A DNA stretch of 64,000 bases, taken from Acidobacteriaceae bacterium (lineage in GTDB: Bacteria; Acidobacteriota; Terriglobia; Terriglobales; Acidobacteriaceae). The notes beneath the pieces are model-generated. The model saw only the letters and a program-made list of their open reading frames with translations. It made no database searches and was not told where the DNA came from. Location of the stretch: assembly GCA_027449965.1 (NCBI GenBank), contig DAIDKP010000026.1, forward strand, positions 186,001-250,000. The letters are read 5' to 3'. The translations under genes and the position numbers were made by a program. This document shows, one piece after another, positions 15,010 to 21,140 of this stretch (its first letter is position 1; each line of letters starts with the position of its first letter).

Positions 15010-16248
15010 ATGGCAGAGGAAGCAAAGCAGAAGCGACGGTACTGGTTGTGGGCGGGCATCGCGGTGATTTTGATCGCGGTCTTTGCGGTTTCACGGCAGT
15101 TGACACAGGACGAGATTCCGATTCATGCGGCGGTGGTGGCGCGGAGTACTCTGCGCAGCACGTTGAGCACGAACGGACTGGTGGAGCCGGTCAAAAACTA
15201 TGAGTTTTACAGTCCGCTGGCGACCTCGGTGGTGCGGATTCCGGTCCACGAGGGAGACGCGGTAAAGGCGGGCCAGGTGCTGATGCAACTGGACGCGGTG
15301 AATGCGCGGGCGCGTGTGTCGTCCGCTTTGAGCGGTTTGCGCGCAGCCGAGGCTTCGCTGGAAGCTCTGCGGCAGGGTGGTTCACTGGCTGAGCAGCAGA
15401 CGCTGGCCTCGAACCTGCGTCGGGCCAGGCTGGATCTGCAACAGGCGCAAAGCGAGTACAAGGCGCTGTCGATGCTGCTCTCAAGCGGCGCTTCGTCGCC
15501 GAGTGAGGTGGCGGCGAGCCGACAGCGAGTGCTGCTGGCCGAGGAAGCGGTGCAGTCGCTGGAGCAGCGGCAAAGCAAACCGTATTCGCCGACTGAACTG
15601 GAGCGGGCACAGGCCAGTGTGAGCGAAGCGCAGACGGCGCTCGATGCGGCGCGAGCGGTGCTGGCGCAGACGACGGTTGTGGCACCGATTGCGGGCACGG
15701 TCTATTCGGTGAATGTGGGCGTCTCGGATTTTGTGGAGCAGGGCAAGCTGCTGCTGGAGATGGCGGACCTGAAGAAGGTGCGCGTGGTGGCGTACTTTGA
15801 CGAGCCGGAGATTGGTCGGCTGGCCGTCGGGCAGAAGATTCGCATTGTCTGGGATGCGCGTCCCGGGCAGGAGTGGCACGGGCATATTACGCAGCTGCCT
15901 TCGACGATTGTGAGCTATGGCACGCGGAATGTGGGCGAGGTGCAGGTGGCGATTGATGACTCGGACGAGGGCCTGCTGCCGGAGACGCACGTGACGGTGA
16001 CGGTGACCACGGCGAGCCAGGTCAATGTCCTGACGGTGCCGCGCGAGGCACTGCACAGCGAAGCGGGCAAGCCGTATGTCTATCGAGTGGAAGATGGCAA
16101 GCTGGTGCATACGCAGGTGACGACGGGCACGATTAACCTGACCGATGTCGCGATTCTCTCCGGGTTGCACGAGGGCGATGTGGTGGCGACCGGATCGCTG
16201 AGTGGAATGGCGCTGGCGGACGGTGATCCGGTGAAGGTTGTGCGGTGA
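15010..16248 (+). CDS. HlyD/MacA-like efflux periplasmic adaptor
   Basis: N-terminal TM, biotinyl-lipoyl-like half motifs (VHEGDAVKAGQVLMQLDA; VVAPIAGTVYSVNVGVSDFVEQGKLL), coiled coil. Confidence 0.9.
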   Translation: MAEEAKQKRRYWLWAGIAVILIAVFAVSRQLTQDEIPIHAAVVARSTLRSTLSTNGLVEPVKNYEFYSPLATSVVRIPVHEGDAVKAGQVLMQLDAVNARARVSSALSGLRAAEASLEALRQGGSLAEQQTLASNLRRARLDLQQAQSEYKALSMLLSSGASSPSEVAASRQRVLLAEEAVQSLEQRQSKPYSPTELERAQASVSEAQTALDAARAVLAQTTVVAPIAGTVYSVNVGVSDFVEQGKLLLEMADLKKVRVVAYFDEPEIGRLAVGQKIRIVWDARPGQEWHGHITQLPSTIVSYGTRNVGEVQVAIDDSDEGLLPETHVTVTVTTASQVNVLTVPREALHSEAGKPYVYRVEDGKLVHTQVTTGTINLTDVAILSGLHEGDVVATGSLSGMALADGDPVKVVR

Positions 16249-17219
16249 CGAACAGGCTGCGGAGCGGAGTGGTAGCCGGATTTGCGGTGTTGGTGTGGCT
16301 GGCGGGGTACGGTCTTGCGCGGACGCCGTTGCAGCAGGCGCATCAGGAACTGGAAGCCGGCGAAGCCGATGCGGCGCGCGCTGATCTGCACACGCTGCTT
16401 GAGAGCGAGCCAGACAATGCCGAGGCGTGGAATCTGCTTGGGCGCGTTGCTTTTACGACGCAGGATTGGCGTGGCGCGGTGAACGATGATGAGCAGGCGG
16501 TGCGCCTTGCACCGCAGAATGGCGAGTATCATCTGTGGCTGGCGCGGGCGCTGGGCGAAGAGGCTGGCCATGTCTCCTTTCTGACCGCGTTTGGGTTGGC
16601 GCGGCGGGCGCGGGTGGAGTTTGAAGCAGCCGTGCGGCTGGCTCCGCGGAGTGCGCAGGCGCTGATGGATCTGGCGGAGTTTGACATGGAAGCGCCATCG
16701 GTGCTGGGTGGCGGATTGGACAAGGCCGAGGGTGTGGCGCGACAACTGGATGCGGTGGACGCTCGACGCGGCCATGAGCTGCGCGCCGAGCTGGCGGAAA
16801 AAGAGGGTGATCCGCGACGCGCCGCTCAACATCTGAAGCAGGCGATGGAGGGTGCTCCACATCCGGCGTTTGTGTGGCTGGCGATGGCGCGGCTGGAGAT
16901 GCACCAGAAGCAGTGGACGGCGATGGGCGAAGCGCTGCACCACGCGGCGGATGCGGCAGCGCACGATCCTGGAGCGACGATTGTGCTTTACGATGCGGCT
17001 TCCCTGATGGCGCGAACACATCAGCAGACGGCGGAGTCGATCCAGTGGATGGAGACGTATGTAGCCTCGCCGACAAAGACGGAAGAGGGACCGGCGTTTG
17101 AGGCGCTGGTGCGGCTGGCGCGCTGGTACGATCAGACTGGGAATCCTGCAGCGGCGGCACGAGATCGAGCGGCGGCGCTGGCGCTGGCGCGGGATTACGC
17201 ACCGGCGAAACAACACTAG
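16245..17219 (+). CDS. Tetratricopeptide repeat protein
   Basis: GTGA overlap with the adaptor; TPR units such as AHQELEAGEADAARADLHTLLESEPDNAEAWNLLGRVAF. Confidence 0.85.
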   Translation: MTNRLRSGVVAGFAVLVWLAGYGLARTPLQQAHQELEAGEADAARADLHTLLESEPDNAEAWNLLGRVAFTTQDWRGAVNDDEQAVRLAPQNGEYHLWLARALGEEAGHVSFLTAFGLARRARVEFEAAVRLAPRSAQALMDLAEFDMEAPSVLGGGLDKAEGVARQLDAVDARRGHELRAELAEKEGDPRRAAQHLKQAMEGAPHPAFVWLAMARLEMHQKQWTAMGEALHHAADAAAHDPGATIVLYDAASLMARTHQQTAESIQWMETYVASPTKTEEGPAFEALVRLARWYDQTGNPAAAARDRAAALALARDYAPAKQH

Positions 17220-17258: not shown

Positions 17259-18647
17259 ATGATGGGACAGAGGTCAGGCAGAAAATTCGGGAAGCGATGG
17301 CGTGGCGTGGTCGCGCTGATGCTGGCGTGCGGATGGTGCGCGACGGGTGTTTCGGCACGGGCGCAGATTTCGCTTTCGACCGTGGTGGACCTGGCGCAGC
17401 GCAACAGCAGCAGCGTGAAGCTGGCCGAGGCGGACGTGCAGAAGACACGCGCAGTGTTGACGGAGATGAACGACGTCTATATCCCGAATCTGGATGTTGG
17501 TTCAAGCATTGGACCGCCCACGATTGGATTTCCCGCCGGACAGCCGTCCATTGCCAATGCGACGATGTCTTCGCTGGTCTTCAGCTTTTCGCAGCGTTCG
17601 TATACACAGGCAGCGGAGGCTGGATACCGGTCAGCGCAACTGGCGCTGAAGGATGCGGCGGAGCAGACGGCGCTGGATGCTTCAAGCGCGTATTTGGAAC
17701 TGGACACGGTGACGCGCGAGATGGATGCGGCAGCGGCGCAGCAGCAGGATGCGCAGCGGCTGGAGTCGATTGAAGAGCAGCGCGTGACGGCAGGTGTGGA
17801 TTCACACAGCGACCTGCTGGAGAGCAAGCTGACACTGGCGCAGCTTCACCTGAAGCAGATTCAGCTTGGAAACCGGGCGGCAATTCTGCGGGCACAACTG
17901 GCGACGATGACGGGTCTGCCGGCGGCTTCCGTTGCGACGCTGCATGATTCGATACCGCAGATTCCGGCGGTCAACACCCCGGTGCAGCCGATGGCTGGAC
18001 TGGCGGCGGCGCAGGAACATGCTCGTTCGCTGCTGTTGCAGGCGCGAGGCGATGCGCAGGTGAATCATCTGCCGCTGATTACCTTTGGCGCGCAGTACAA
18101 TCGCGACTCCAACTCGCTGAACAACTACAGCACGTATTATCAGCACTTCAAGGCGGACAACTTCAGCATTGGGGTGACGATTCAGATTCCACTGTTTGAT
18201 CTGGTGCATCGGGACAAGGCTCGGGAGTCGGCCGCCGATGCCTTGCGCTCGCGCGTGGAGGCCGAGCAGGTGAGCCGACAAAACGATGTGCAGGTGGCGA
18301 CGCTGAATGCGCAACTGGCCGAACTGGCGACGCTTGAAGAGATTGCCTCGCTGAAGCAGGAGATTGCGCAGGACCAGTTGCGGCAGGTGCAAAGCGAGTT
18401 GCAGTATGGCAATGGATCGGGCGCGGGCGCTGATGCTGCGCCGCAGGTGACGCCGAAAGCGCTGCAACTGGCCGAGATTGACGAGCAGACAAAAGTGATG
18501 GACGCCGAAGAGACGGAGTTCAACCTGAGCAAGGCGCGGCTGAGCCTGTTGCGAGCGCTGGGCCACATGCAGGATTGGCTGAGCACGCTGGGTGCAAAAG
18601 CCGGTGGAGCGGCCACAGATATTGCTGCGCCGGGCCGTGGACGGTGA
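17259..18647 (+). CDS. TolC family outer membrane efflux protein
   Basis: Signal peptide and OEP coiled-coil repeats (LSTVVDLAQRNSSSVKLAEADVQKTRAVLTEMNDVYIPNLDVG). Confidence 0.9.
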   Translation: MMGQRSGRKFGKRWRGVVALMLACGWCATGVSARAQISLSTVVDLAQRNSSSVKLAEADVQKTRAVLTEMNDVYIPNLDVGSSIGPPTIGFPAGQPSIANATMSSLVFSFSQRSYTQAAEAGYRSAQLALKDAAEQTALDASSAYLELDTVTREMDAAAAQQQDAQRLESIEEQRVTAGVDSHSDLLESKLTLAQLHLKQIQLGNRAAILRAQLATMTGLPAASVATLHDSIPQIPAVNTPVQPMAGLAAAQEHARSLLLQARGDAQVNHLPLITFGAQYNRDSNSLNNYSTYYQHFKADNFSIGVTIQIPLFDLVHRDKARESAADALRSRVEAEQVSRQNDVQVATLNAQLAELATLEEIASLKQEIAQDQLRQVQSELQYGNGSGAGADAAPQVTPKALQLAEIDEQTKVMDAEETEFNLSKARLSLLRALGHMQDWLSTLGAKAGGAATDIAAPGRGR

Positions 18648-18726: not shown

Positions 18727-20196
18727 ATGCCATTGAAGACACTGTTTCTGAATCCGCCCTCGTTTGAAAACTTTGATGGTGGCGCCAGCTCCCGCTGGCC
18801 AGCCACACGCGAGATTGAGTCCTACTGGTATCCAGTGTGGCTGACGTATCCTGCGGGACTGCTGGAAGGCTCGCGTCTGCTGGATGCTCCGCCGCACCAT
18901 GTGAGTGCCGACGAGACGATCCAAATCTGTAAGGACTACGAGTTTCTTGTGCTGTTTACCTCGACGGTGGGCTGGACGGGAGACCAGAAGCTGGCCGAGG
19001 CGATCAAGGCGGCGAATCCGTCGATCCGCATAGCGTTTGTGGGGCCGCCGGTGACGACTTCGCCGGATAAGGCACTGAATGAGTGCCCGGTGCTGGACTT
19101 TATCTGTCGCCGCGAGTTTGACTACTCCATCGTGGAGTATGCCAATGGCAAGCCGTTGAATGAGATTCTGGGCATCAGCTATCGCGAAAACGGGAAGGTG
19201 GTGCATAATCCTGACCGTCCGCAGATTGAAGATCTGGACGCGATGCCGTGGGCGACGAAGATCTACAAGCGCGACCTGGACGTGACGCGCTACAACGTGC
19301 CGTTTCTGCTGCATCCTTACATTTCGCTGTATTCGACACGTGGCTGCCCGGCGCAGTGTACCTTCTGCCTGTGGCCGCAGACGCTCTCGGGCCATGCGTG
19401 GCGGAAGCGCTCGACCGACGATGTGGCGGCGGAGCTGAAGTGGGCCAAGGAGAATTTCCCGGAGGTCAAGGAGTTCTTCTTTGACGACGATACGTTCAAT
19501 ATCCAGAAGGCGCGGACGATTGAACTGTGTGAGAAGCTGAAGCCGCTGAAGCTGACCTGGAGCTGCACCTCGCGTGTGACCACGGATCGCGAGACGCTGA
19601 AGGCGATGAAGGATGCCGGCTGCCGGCTGCTGATTGTCGGCTTTGAGTCGGGCGATCCGCAGATTCTGAAGAACATCAAAAAGGGCGCCACTGTCGAGCG
19701 TGCGCGCGCCTTCGCCAAGGACTGCAACGAGCTTGGTCTGACGATTCATGGCGACTTTATTCTGGGCCTGCCGGGCGAGACGAAAGAGTCGATCCAGAAC
19801 ACGATCCGGTTTGCCAAGTCGCTGGATGTGGAGACGATTCAGGTCTCGATCGCACATGCGTATCCGGGCACGGAGTTCTTTGATTACGCCGAGAAGAACG
19901 GCTTCATCACGAACGAAGATGCGATGAGCGATGCGGGCGGGCACCAGATGGCGCACATCGAGTATCCGGGGCTGCCGAAGGAGTATGTGCTGGAGATGGT
20001 GCATCGCTTCTATGATGCCTACTATTTCCGGCCCAAGGCTGCCTTCCGCGTGATCTGGAAAGCCGTGGTGAATCGTGACCTGCCGCGGCTGTATGTGGAG
20101 GCGAAGGCCTTTCTGAAGCTGCGTGGCGAGCGCAATCGCATGGTGAAGGAAGCAAAGAAATTGCAAGCGAAGACGCCGGATCCGGTGAGCGCGTAG
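18727..20196 (+). CDS. hpnJ: Hopanoid biosynthesis associated radical SAM protein HpnJ
   Basis: Radical SAM CxxxCxxC (TRGCPAQCTFC), B12-binding-like N-terminus, and overall HpnJ-like sequence. Confidence 0.9.
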   Translation: MPLKTLFLNPPSFENFDGGASSRWPATREIESYWYPVWLTYPAGLLEGSRLLDAPPHHVSADETIQICKDYEFLVLFTSTVGWTGDQKLAEAIKAANPSIRIAFVGPPVTTSPDKALNECPVLDFICRREFDYSIVEYANGKPLNEILGISYRENGKVVHNPDRPQIEDLDAMPWATKIYKRDLDVTRYNVPFLLHPYISLYSTRGCPAQCTFCLWPQTLSGHAWRKRSTDDVAAELKWAKENFPEVKEFFFDDDTFNIQKARTIELCEKLKPLKLTWSCTSRVTTDRETLKAMKDAGCRLLIVGFESGDPQILKNIKKGATVERARAFAKDCNELGLTIHGDFILGLPGETKESIQNTIRFAKSLDVETIQVSIAHAYPGTEFFDYAEKNGFITNEDAMSDAGGHQMAHIEYPGLPKEYVLEMVHRFYDAYYFRPKAAFRVIWKAVVNRDLPRLYVEAKAFLKLRGERNRMVKEAKKLQAKTPDPVSA

Positions 20197-20205
20197 ATTG
20201 TCGAA

Positions 20206-20237
20206 CAGGGCCGGGCGAGCCGCTGCCTGCCCGGCCT
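20206..20237 (+). terminator. Hairpin after hpnJ (possible weak terminator)
   Basis: GGCCGGGC ... GCCCGGCC stem followed by TTCGATGTATTTTC. Confidence 0.45.
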
Positions 20238-20307
20238 TCGATGTATTTTCCCCGCACGACATCCTGTTTTCATTTGACGGCTGAGGCCGAAGAGAAAGCT
20301 CCGGAGC

Positions 20308-20733
20308 ATGTCCCATCGGCGACTGAAGGCCAGCCAGTACCTGATTCTGCTGCTGGTGGCGCTGTGTGCGCCGCTGGGCGATAGCTGCCTGTCGCGGGGC
20401 ATGAGCATGATGCCTGCGATCTCGCTGGCGCATCCGCTGCTGCTGTTGCAGGCGGTGTTTACGCCATGGATTGCGGGCGGGATCCTGCTGCTGATCGCAT
20501 TTTTTGCCTGTTATCTGACAGCGCTCTCCTGGGCTGACCTGACGTATGTATTGCCGACGACGGCCTTTGGCTATGTGCTGATTGCGCTGCTGGGGCGGTT
20601 CTGGCTGCATGAGCATATTTCGCCGATGCGATGGGCGGGAATCCTGCTGATTACGCTGGGTGTGGGATTTGTGGCGCAGGGACCATCCCGGACCGAGTCG
20701 GAAACGGCTTCGGGCGAAGGGGAACAGGCATGA
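20308..20733 (+). CDS. Half-size EamA/SMR-like transporter subunit
   Basis: 141 aa, ~4 TM; LSWADLTYVLPTTAFGYVLIALLGRFWLHEHISPMRWAGILLITLGVGFV. Confidence 0.85.
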   Translation: MSHRRLKASQYLILLLVALCAPLGDSCLSRGMSMMPAISLAHPLLLLQAVFTPWIAGGILLLIAFFACYLTALSWADLTYVLPTTAFGYVLIALLGRFWLHEHISPMRWAGILLITLGVGFVAQGPSRTESETASGEGEQA

Positions 20734-21140
20734 TGGCGGGGTGGGTGGCCGGTTTGCCGCCGGGGTTCTGGCCCGGCGCAGGAATGATTGTGGCTGTGTC
20801 GATTACCTCGACGATTGGCGAGGTGCTGACGGCGGCAGCGATGAAATCGATTGGCGACCTGGATGACATTCGCGCGCACAGCGGATTGACTGGGGCGATT
20901 CGTGCGGTGCTGACCTGCCCGCTGTTTTTTGTCGGAGTCAGTTTTCTGTCAATGGCGTTTTTCGCACTGCTGTTTGCCCTGAATCATCTGGACCTGAGCC
21001 TGGCGGCACCGGCTTCGGCTTCGCTGACGCTGGTGACAAATGCGATTGCGGCCAAGCTTTTTCTGCACGAGAATGTGGACCGGCGGCGGTGGCTGGCGGC
21101 GGGTTTGGTGTGCGTGGGCGTCTATCTGATTGCGCACTGA
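20730..21140 (+). CDS. Half-size EamA/SMR-like transporter subunit (second)
   Basis: 136 aa; ATGA overlap with previous gene. LNHLDLSLAAPASASLTLVTNAIAAKLFLHENVDRRRWLAAGLVCVGVYLIAH. Confidence 0.85.
   Translation: MMAGWVAGLPPGFWPGAGMIVAVSITSTIGEVLTAAAMKSIGDLDDIRAHSGLTGAIRAVLTCPLFFVGVSFLSMAFFALLFALNHLDLSLAAPASASLTLVTNAIAAKLFLHENVDRRRWLAAGLVCVGVYLIAH

Follow-up and report, generated by a model that had tools for sequence, protein, structure and literature searches.

The window, by which we mean the whole stretch of 64,000 nucleotides that was analysed, comes from contig C26 of an acidobacterial draft genome of 3.2 Mb (G000). The genomes nearest to it are of the Acidobacteriaceae type, and the window's own family bears the label f1 in our genome search. 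At the locus studied here an adaptor/TPR/TolC operon precedes hpnJ, which is followed by two small membrane protein genes, for whose products we introduce the names SmrA and SmrB. The features are as follows.

15010-16248, + strand: HlyD/RND-type periplasmic adaptor of the upstream operon (TIGR01730, 155.9 bits, over cut-off; synteny)
16245-17219, + strand: TPR-repeat protein of the upstream operon (TPR families; synteny)
17259-18647, + strand: TolC-family outer membrane factor of the upstream operon (PF02321, 99.6 bits; upstream in 49 of 52 informative relatives)
18727-20196, + strand: hpnJ, B12-binding radical SAM enzyme of hopanoid headgroup maturation (489 aa; TIGR03471, 759.6 bits against a cut-off of 577.6)
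20208-20237, + strand: GC-rich hairpin in the hpnJ-smrA spacer (RNA fold z = -2.31; no T-run, not a canonical terminator)
20308-20733, + strand: smrA, encoding subunit A, a half-size protein of the EamA/SMR type (141 aa, 4 TM; its conserved polar TM1 residue is Asp25)
20730-21140, + strand: smrB, encoding subunit B, a half-size protein of the EamA/SMR type (136 aa, 4 TM; its conserved acidic TM1 residue is Glu31)

An earlier, sequence-only reading of this DNA had described hpnJ followed by two half-size EamA genes of 141 and 136 aa overlapping at ATGA. These coordinates and lengths are correct and the overlap, in which 4 bases are shared, was confirmed; the in-frame smrB start lies within the smrA stop in the same ATGA manner in 73 of 78 relatives. 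A longer mechanical start for smrB exists at 20631. In one other genome (G103, C34:196718-198254) HpnJ is found in two frames, possibly a frameshift or a pseudogene, and the neighbouring pair is intact.

The hairpin that the same reading had proposed at 20206-20237 is real, with a stem at 20208-20217/20228-20237 that folds at z = -2.3. A role as a terminator was not supported, since the hairpin has no proper T-run and does not appear among the calls of the terminator scan. When the spacers of related loci and of the window were folded, six of the ten beat their shuffles at z <= -2, and these strong hairpins have no sequence in common.

Sequence, family and fold of SmrA and SmrB

Both proteins pass the Pfam gathering cut-off of the EamA family (PF00892, 28.2 bits), with 32.0 bits for SmrA and 31.9 for SmrB, the match covering only their C-terminal halves. 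The cut-off of the SMR family (PF00893) is not reached, SmrB scoring 17.3 bits against 23.7 and SmrA not being listed. The best NCBIfam match of SmrB is ArnE (E 1.7e-6); it scores 28.2 bits against a curated cut-off of 92 for this model (NF011625), to which SmrA has no match. Searches of the PDB by sequence with the family profiles gave weak DMT/SLC35 and NIPA matches only for SmrA and none for SmrB. The AlphaFold2 single-chain models (pLDDT 83 and 85) each show four long helices and one short helix after TM1, and among solved structures they best match Gdx-Clo and EmrE, both SMR transporters, with a Foldseek probability of 1.00 and a TM-score by target of about 0.68-0.75. As the E value of these matches is only about 0.1, the fold call rests on the probability and the TM-score; on that basis the models show an SMR-like four-TM fold of the EmrE/Gdx type in both proteins.

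The pair is conserved far above what chance would allow; when 42 SmrB sequences of the Acidobacteriaceae type are compared, 29 columns are invariant. Profiles of the A and B types separate in 23 loci, each of which has one of each, A then B, and the SmrB sequences form one clade with a support of 100/96 in a tree built on few columns and distant outgroups. SmrA and SmrB are old, distinct paralogues that have been retained as a pair, and they probably act together as an SMR/EamA-type heterodimer. The two subunits of a paired SMR are expected to differ in the sign of their Arg/Lys bias. When we compared the distribution of Arg and Lys, the bias was strong in SmrB (mean -8.2, negative in all 30 sequences) and near 0 in SmrA (-1.4 without the C-tail), where it is not opposite to that of SmrB. 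An enforced antiparallel arrangement of the dimer is therefore only plausible, given that one of the subunits has almost no charge bias.

One residue in TM1 stands out. It is Asp or Glu in all 30 SmrB sequences and Asp (21) or Asn (9) in all 30 SmrA sequences. In an ungapped comparison of SmrB (EVLTAAAMK) with EmrE (EVIGTTLMK), the SmrB acid falls on EmrE Glu14. However, MAFFT with E. coli outgroups opens a 2-column gap in TM1 that shifts the acid off Glu14, and hhalign against single E. coli proteins aligns only the C-terminal halves and so does not fix the register. We treat a shared register with Glu14 as a lead, and because of the MAFFT gap our claim for this residue is limited to its conservation within the SmrA and SmrB families.

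Linkage to the hopanoid headgroup genes

When 84,980 species genomes were scanned with SmrB, 80 loci were found, every one of them acidobacterial. At the 72 loci with hpnJ on the contig, hpnJ precedes smrA on the same strand, at a distance of no more than 650 bp in 70; in the other two the gap is 2.3 and 4.5 kb. A further locus (L069) has ample upstream sequence yet carries no hpnJ, and at five others the contigs are too short for the linkage to be judged. Many loci of close relatives, including that of Terracidiphilus gabretensis, continue downstream into a converging squalene/hopanoid cluster, in which similarity and gene order indicate putative hpnE, hpnD, hpnC, hpnG, hpnA, hpnH and shc. 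This concatenated cluster is described in a survey of acidobacterial hopanoid genes, which in the portion available to us also mentions two unnamed extra genes adjoining hpnJ in one strain and does not name a transporter pair there (PMC5462960). Our guess is that these two genes may be smrA and smrB. We dropped rdgB as part of the unit, as only near relatives of the window have it 3' of the pair.

The linkage was also followed from the side of HpnJ, which is over its cut-off in 60 of 396 Acidobacteriota genomes. SmrA was found in 57 of these 60 with a wide profile (A4; match of at least 133 bits), and in these genomes the partner is detected with the profile of SmrB (A3). In 54 of the 57, SmrA lies downstream of hpnJ on the same contig and strand (37 within 500 bp, 15 within 2 kb and 2 within 8 kb), and in the other three it is on a different contig. 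Families other than f1 show the order hpnJ-hpnK-smrA-smrB-hpnI (L127, L129, L130, L131 and L132), and in L127 and L130 both enzymes exceed their cut-offs, HpnK (cut-off 232.6) with 295 and 304 bits and HpnI (cut-off 310) with 367 and 392 bits. In families that lack hpnK, the order is hpnJ-smrA-smrB-hpnI (L133, L136 and L137), the HpnI of L137 being slightly under its cut-off at 294 bits. In two genomes with hpnJ elsewhere, the pair remains with hpnK (G267) or with both hpnK and hpnI (G291). A D-Ala-D-Ala dipeptidase gene of the VanX/DdpX type was seen inserted between smrB and hpnI in L127 (12716-13450).

The sequence-only reading had staked its proposal on the pair accompanying hpnJ in other genomes; it does so in 57 of 60, and the association extends to hpnI and hpnK. 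This phylum-wide linkage is our strongest reason for assigning the pair to the HpnI/HpnK/HpnJ branch, and we have very little doubt that the two are functionally connected.

The headgroup made in the window's own family is a separate matter. The window genome has an HpnI over its cut-off, on another contig and unlinked to hpnJ, and a search of it for HpnK found no true member, the best match reaching 177.7 bits against 232.6. We rejected this match as HpnK because it is a paralogue beside a family-4 glycosyltransferase. All f1 genomes carry the paralogue only, nearly all of them at 166-210 bits; most genomes with a true HpnK carry the paralogue as well. The acidobacterial survey also reports this lack of HpnK (PMC5462960). 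Since the family lacks an orthologous HpnK, its exact headgroup is uncertain: hpnJ itself is confirmed, but the bacteriohopanetetrol cyclitol ether to which it had been tied may not be the product in the window genome. The paralogue, a YdjC-family protein (178-187 bits) found in nearly all HpnJ genomes, lies directly 5' of the glycosyltransferase gene both on contig C11 of the window genome (L121:9345-11509) and in L025 (12907-15046), an arrangement that points to a possible second deacetylated glycolipid.

The adaptor/TPR/TolC operon had also been suggested as a partner of the pair. It lies upstream of hpnJ in 49 of the 52 informative Acidobacteriaceae-type loci and is linked in one other family (L133), and to that extent the suggestion stands. 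However, most hpnJ-hpnK-pair-hpnI loci, which belong to other families, have neither adaptor nor TolC, and the operon is therefore not an obligate partner. The pair could be the inner membrane part of this machine, whose cargo, hopanoids or something else, would go to the outer membrane. Such a role would draw on the linkage just described and on the question of outer membrane delivery. HpnN delivers hopanoids to the outer membrane in proteobacteria. No HpnN (TIGR03480) is over its cut-off in any of the 24 HpnJ-positive acidobacterial genomes tested (G000 and 23 others), and in the window genome nothing matches at E 1e-10. The delivery of acidobacterial hopanoids to the outer membrane is thus unexplained; the adaptor/TPR/TolC genes are a possible substitute for HpnN. 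On the other hand, the adaptor(-TPR)-TolC-type genes that precede hpnJ in L133 (10648-15566) and L135 (3621-7832) stand with a MacB/FtsX-type permease of their own, which the window's operon does not have, and together with the loci that lack adaptor and TolC this leads us to give very little credence to the pair as the inner membrane component.

HpnL-type proteins in the place of the pair

Only three HpnJ genomes lack the pair. The locus of one (G192) stops at a contig edge. The other two have the orders hpnI-hpnJ-hpnK-[HpnL-type] (G029) and hpnJ-hpnK-hpnI-[HpnL-type] (G278), and the best match of the last protein is HpnL (TIGR03476), at 112 and 149 bits, respectively, below the cut-off of 195.7. 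Among the genomes with the pair, none carries a PF03706 gene at a distance of 20 kb or less from hpnJ. An HpnL-type gene is thus present at 2 of 2 intact pairless loci and in 0 of 57 pair-bearing genomes, for which the exact chance is 1 in 1711, uncorrected for relatedness and drawn from two lineages only. The five proteobacterial hpnJ loci that we checked all carry HpnL, with matches to the TIGR00374 flippase-like domain and to PF03706, and none carries the pair. At the hpnJ loci covered here, then, the pair and HpnL exclude one another.

Two unrelated membrane proteins that fill the same slot and come from families containing flippases suggest a shared transport task, and we conclude that SmrA/SmrB probably carries out the job of HpnL. 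HpnL is described as having no established function (PMC12583986), and so its replacement does not prove flipping.

We weighed two other explanations of the pair. The pair could be a membrane scaffold or an essential accessory subunit of HpnI, HpnK and HpnJ, serving docking or substrate presentation and flipping no lipid. An identical linkage to hpnJ, hpnK and hpnI would then be expected, SmrA/SmrB could dock the peripheral HpnJ and HpnK, and HpnL could equally be a subunit of this kind. We consider it unlikely, however, given that the SMR/EamA fold and HpnL both come from families with lipid-translocating members and that the conserved acidic TM1 residue suits transport better. If the pair does transport, its cargo could be small and soluble (a sugar, an amine or a toxic compound that HpnJ or HpnK releases as a by-product), or the pair could be a multidrug exporter like the classic SMR pairs, many of which export small cations; an acidic TM1 residue is typical of the proton-coupled SMRs. 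But the pair stays under the Pfam SMR cut-off, a general exporter would not be expected to stay linked to hpnJ, hpnK and hpnI in several families, as the pair constantly does, and it is replaced by HpnL, a large MprF-like protein. Small-molecule export is accordingly quite unlikely in our estimation.

Proposed role and comparison with known systems

HpnJ, as a radical SAM enzyme, needs reducing conditions and must work in the cytoplasm, and to our knowledge no protein is known for the crossing of the inner membrane by hopanoids with polar heads. HpnI, HpnK and HpnJ act successively on bacteriohopanetetrol (PMC12583986). In the mechanism that we propose, HpnI works at the cytoplasmic face, where it attaches GlcNAc to bacteriohopanetetrol; HpnK then deacetylates the resulting hopanoid and HpnJ contracts the ring. 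Because HpnJ is confined to the cytoplasm, the head of its product starts on the cytoplasmic side, and the finished or nearly finished amino-sugar/cyclitol hopanoid would have to turn its large polar head to the periplasmic leaflet. SmrA/SmrB would be the heterodimeric translocator that performs this turn, dedicated to the HpnI-HpnK-HpnJ branch and standing in for the HpnL of proteobacterial and a few acidobacterial loci, after which the hopanoid would move on toward outer membrane delivery.

Taking family, fold and the replacement of HpnL together, we regard flipping of the HpnI/HpnK/HpnJ product by a SmrA/SmrB heterodimer as somewhat probable. A hopanoid headgroup flippase was already the suggestion of the sequence-only reading and is still the best one; the polyprenyl-linked intermediate offered there as another substrate found no support, the neighbours of the pair being HpnI, HpnJ and HpnK. 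The SMR family includes a subtype of glycolipid flippases, and lipid-type SMRs are often without the central Glu (PMC9574504); the acid retained in TM1 would fit an amino-headed lipid. More tentatively, and although we hold it less likely than not, the pair may represent a new lipid-type SMR/EamA heterodimer, a dedicated flippase of cationic amino-sugar hopanoids in Acidobacteriota that has replaced the unrelated HpnL and whose ionisable TM1 residue perhaps exchanges the amino headgroup for protons.

Acidobacteriota are abundant in soils and their lipids serve as geological biomarkers. Our analysis flags two unnamed hopanoid-linked genes in this phylum, and the alternation of HpnL and an SMR-type pair in one operon slot gives both a common, testable job. 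If the proposal is true, HpnL would be the hopanoid flippase of proteobacteria, and the pair would supply the missing step between HpnJ and outer membrane delivery.

Related pairs occur in a few HpnJ-less genomes, and the fold is thus not used for hopanoids only. We also noted, in an HpnJ genome (G370, L164:9158-14692), a second SMR-type pair that has an HpnI-like glycosyltransferase, a sugar epimerase and an asparagine synthase-like gene within 5 kb, and a single SMR-type gene between an HpnK-related YdjC deacetylase and a DegT aminotransferase in a genome with no HpnJ over the cut-off (G330, L166:7924-10825). These neighbourhoods suggest that there may be a wider group of amino-sugar lipid transporters.

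The known system to which the pair had been likened is ArnE/ArnF, the undecaprenyl-phosphate-Ara4N flippase of the lipid subtype of SMR. The likeness holds for the two half-size genes overlapping at ATGA beside headgroup enzymes (E. coli arnE and arnF overlap similarly), for the SMR/EamA fold, for a comparable way of working and for the weak similarity of SmrB to ArnE. Membership does not hold, since SmrB has 28 bits against 92, ArnF and SmrA have no profile match between them, and ArnE and ArnF both have Gln where SmrB has Asp or Glu and SmrA has Asp or Asn. The pair could still flip a polyprenyl-phosphate-linked sugar that is later put on a hopanoid or another envelope lipid at the periplasmic face, and the E value of the ArnE match, the gene overlap and the few hpnJ-less pairs or single relatives near sugar-modifying genes would agree with this. 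We find it distinctly improbable, however: besides the missed cut-off and the Gln, the pair loci carry hpnI, hpnJ, hpnK and squalene genes and not the Ara4N genes arnB, arnC, arnA, arnD and arnT, family searches among the neighbours examined found no polyprenyl-phosphate glycosyltransferase or ArnT-like gene, and a carrier lipid is not needed when the hopanoid itself is the substrate of HpnI, HpnK and HpnJ (PMC12583986).

EmrE and Gdx-Clo, which are proton-coupled SMR transporters, are the closest solved structures for both subunits and share the TM1 acid with SmrB, in the register of Glu14 only when the sequences are left ungapped; they differ in that our pair is under the Pfam SMR cut-off and consists of two different subunits. 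HpnN, an RND hopanoid transporter, has hopanoid trafficking in common with the pair but another fold, and acts at another step, transport to the outer membrane. HpnL (TIGR03476; LPG_synthase_TM, MprF-like) is of an unrelated family and a different size and was never found here at a pair-bearing hpnJ locus, but it occupies the same place beside hpnI, hpnJ and hpnK and is likewise an integral membrane protein of a flippase-like family.
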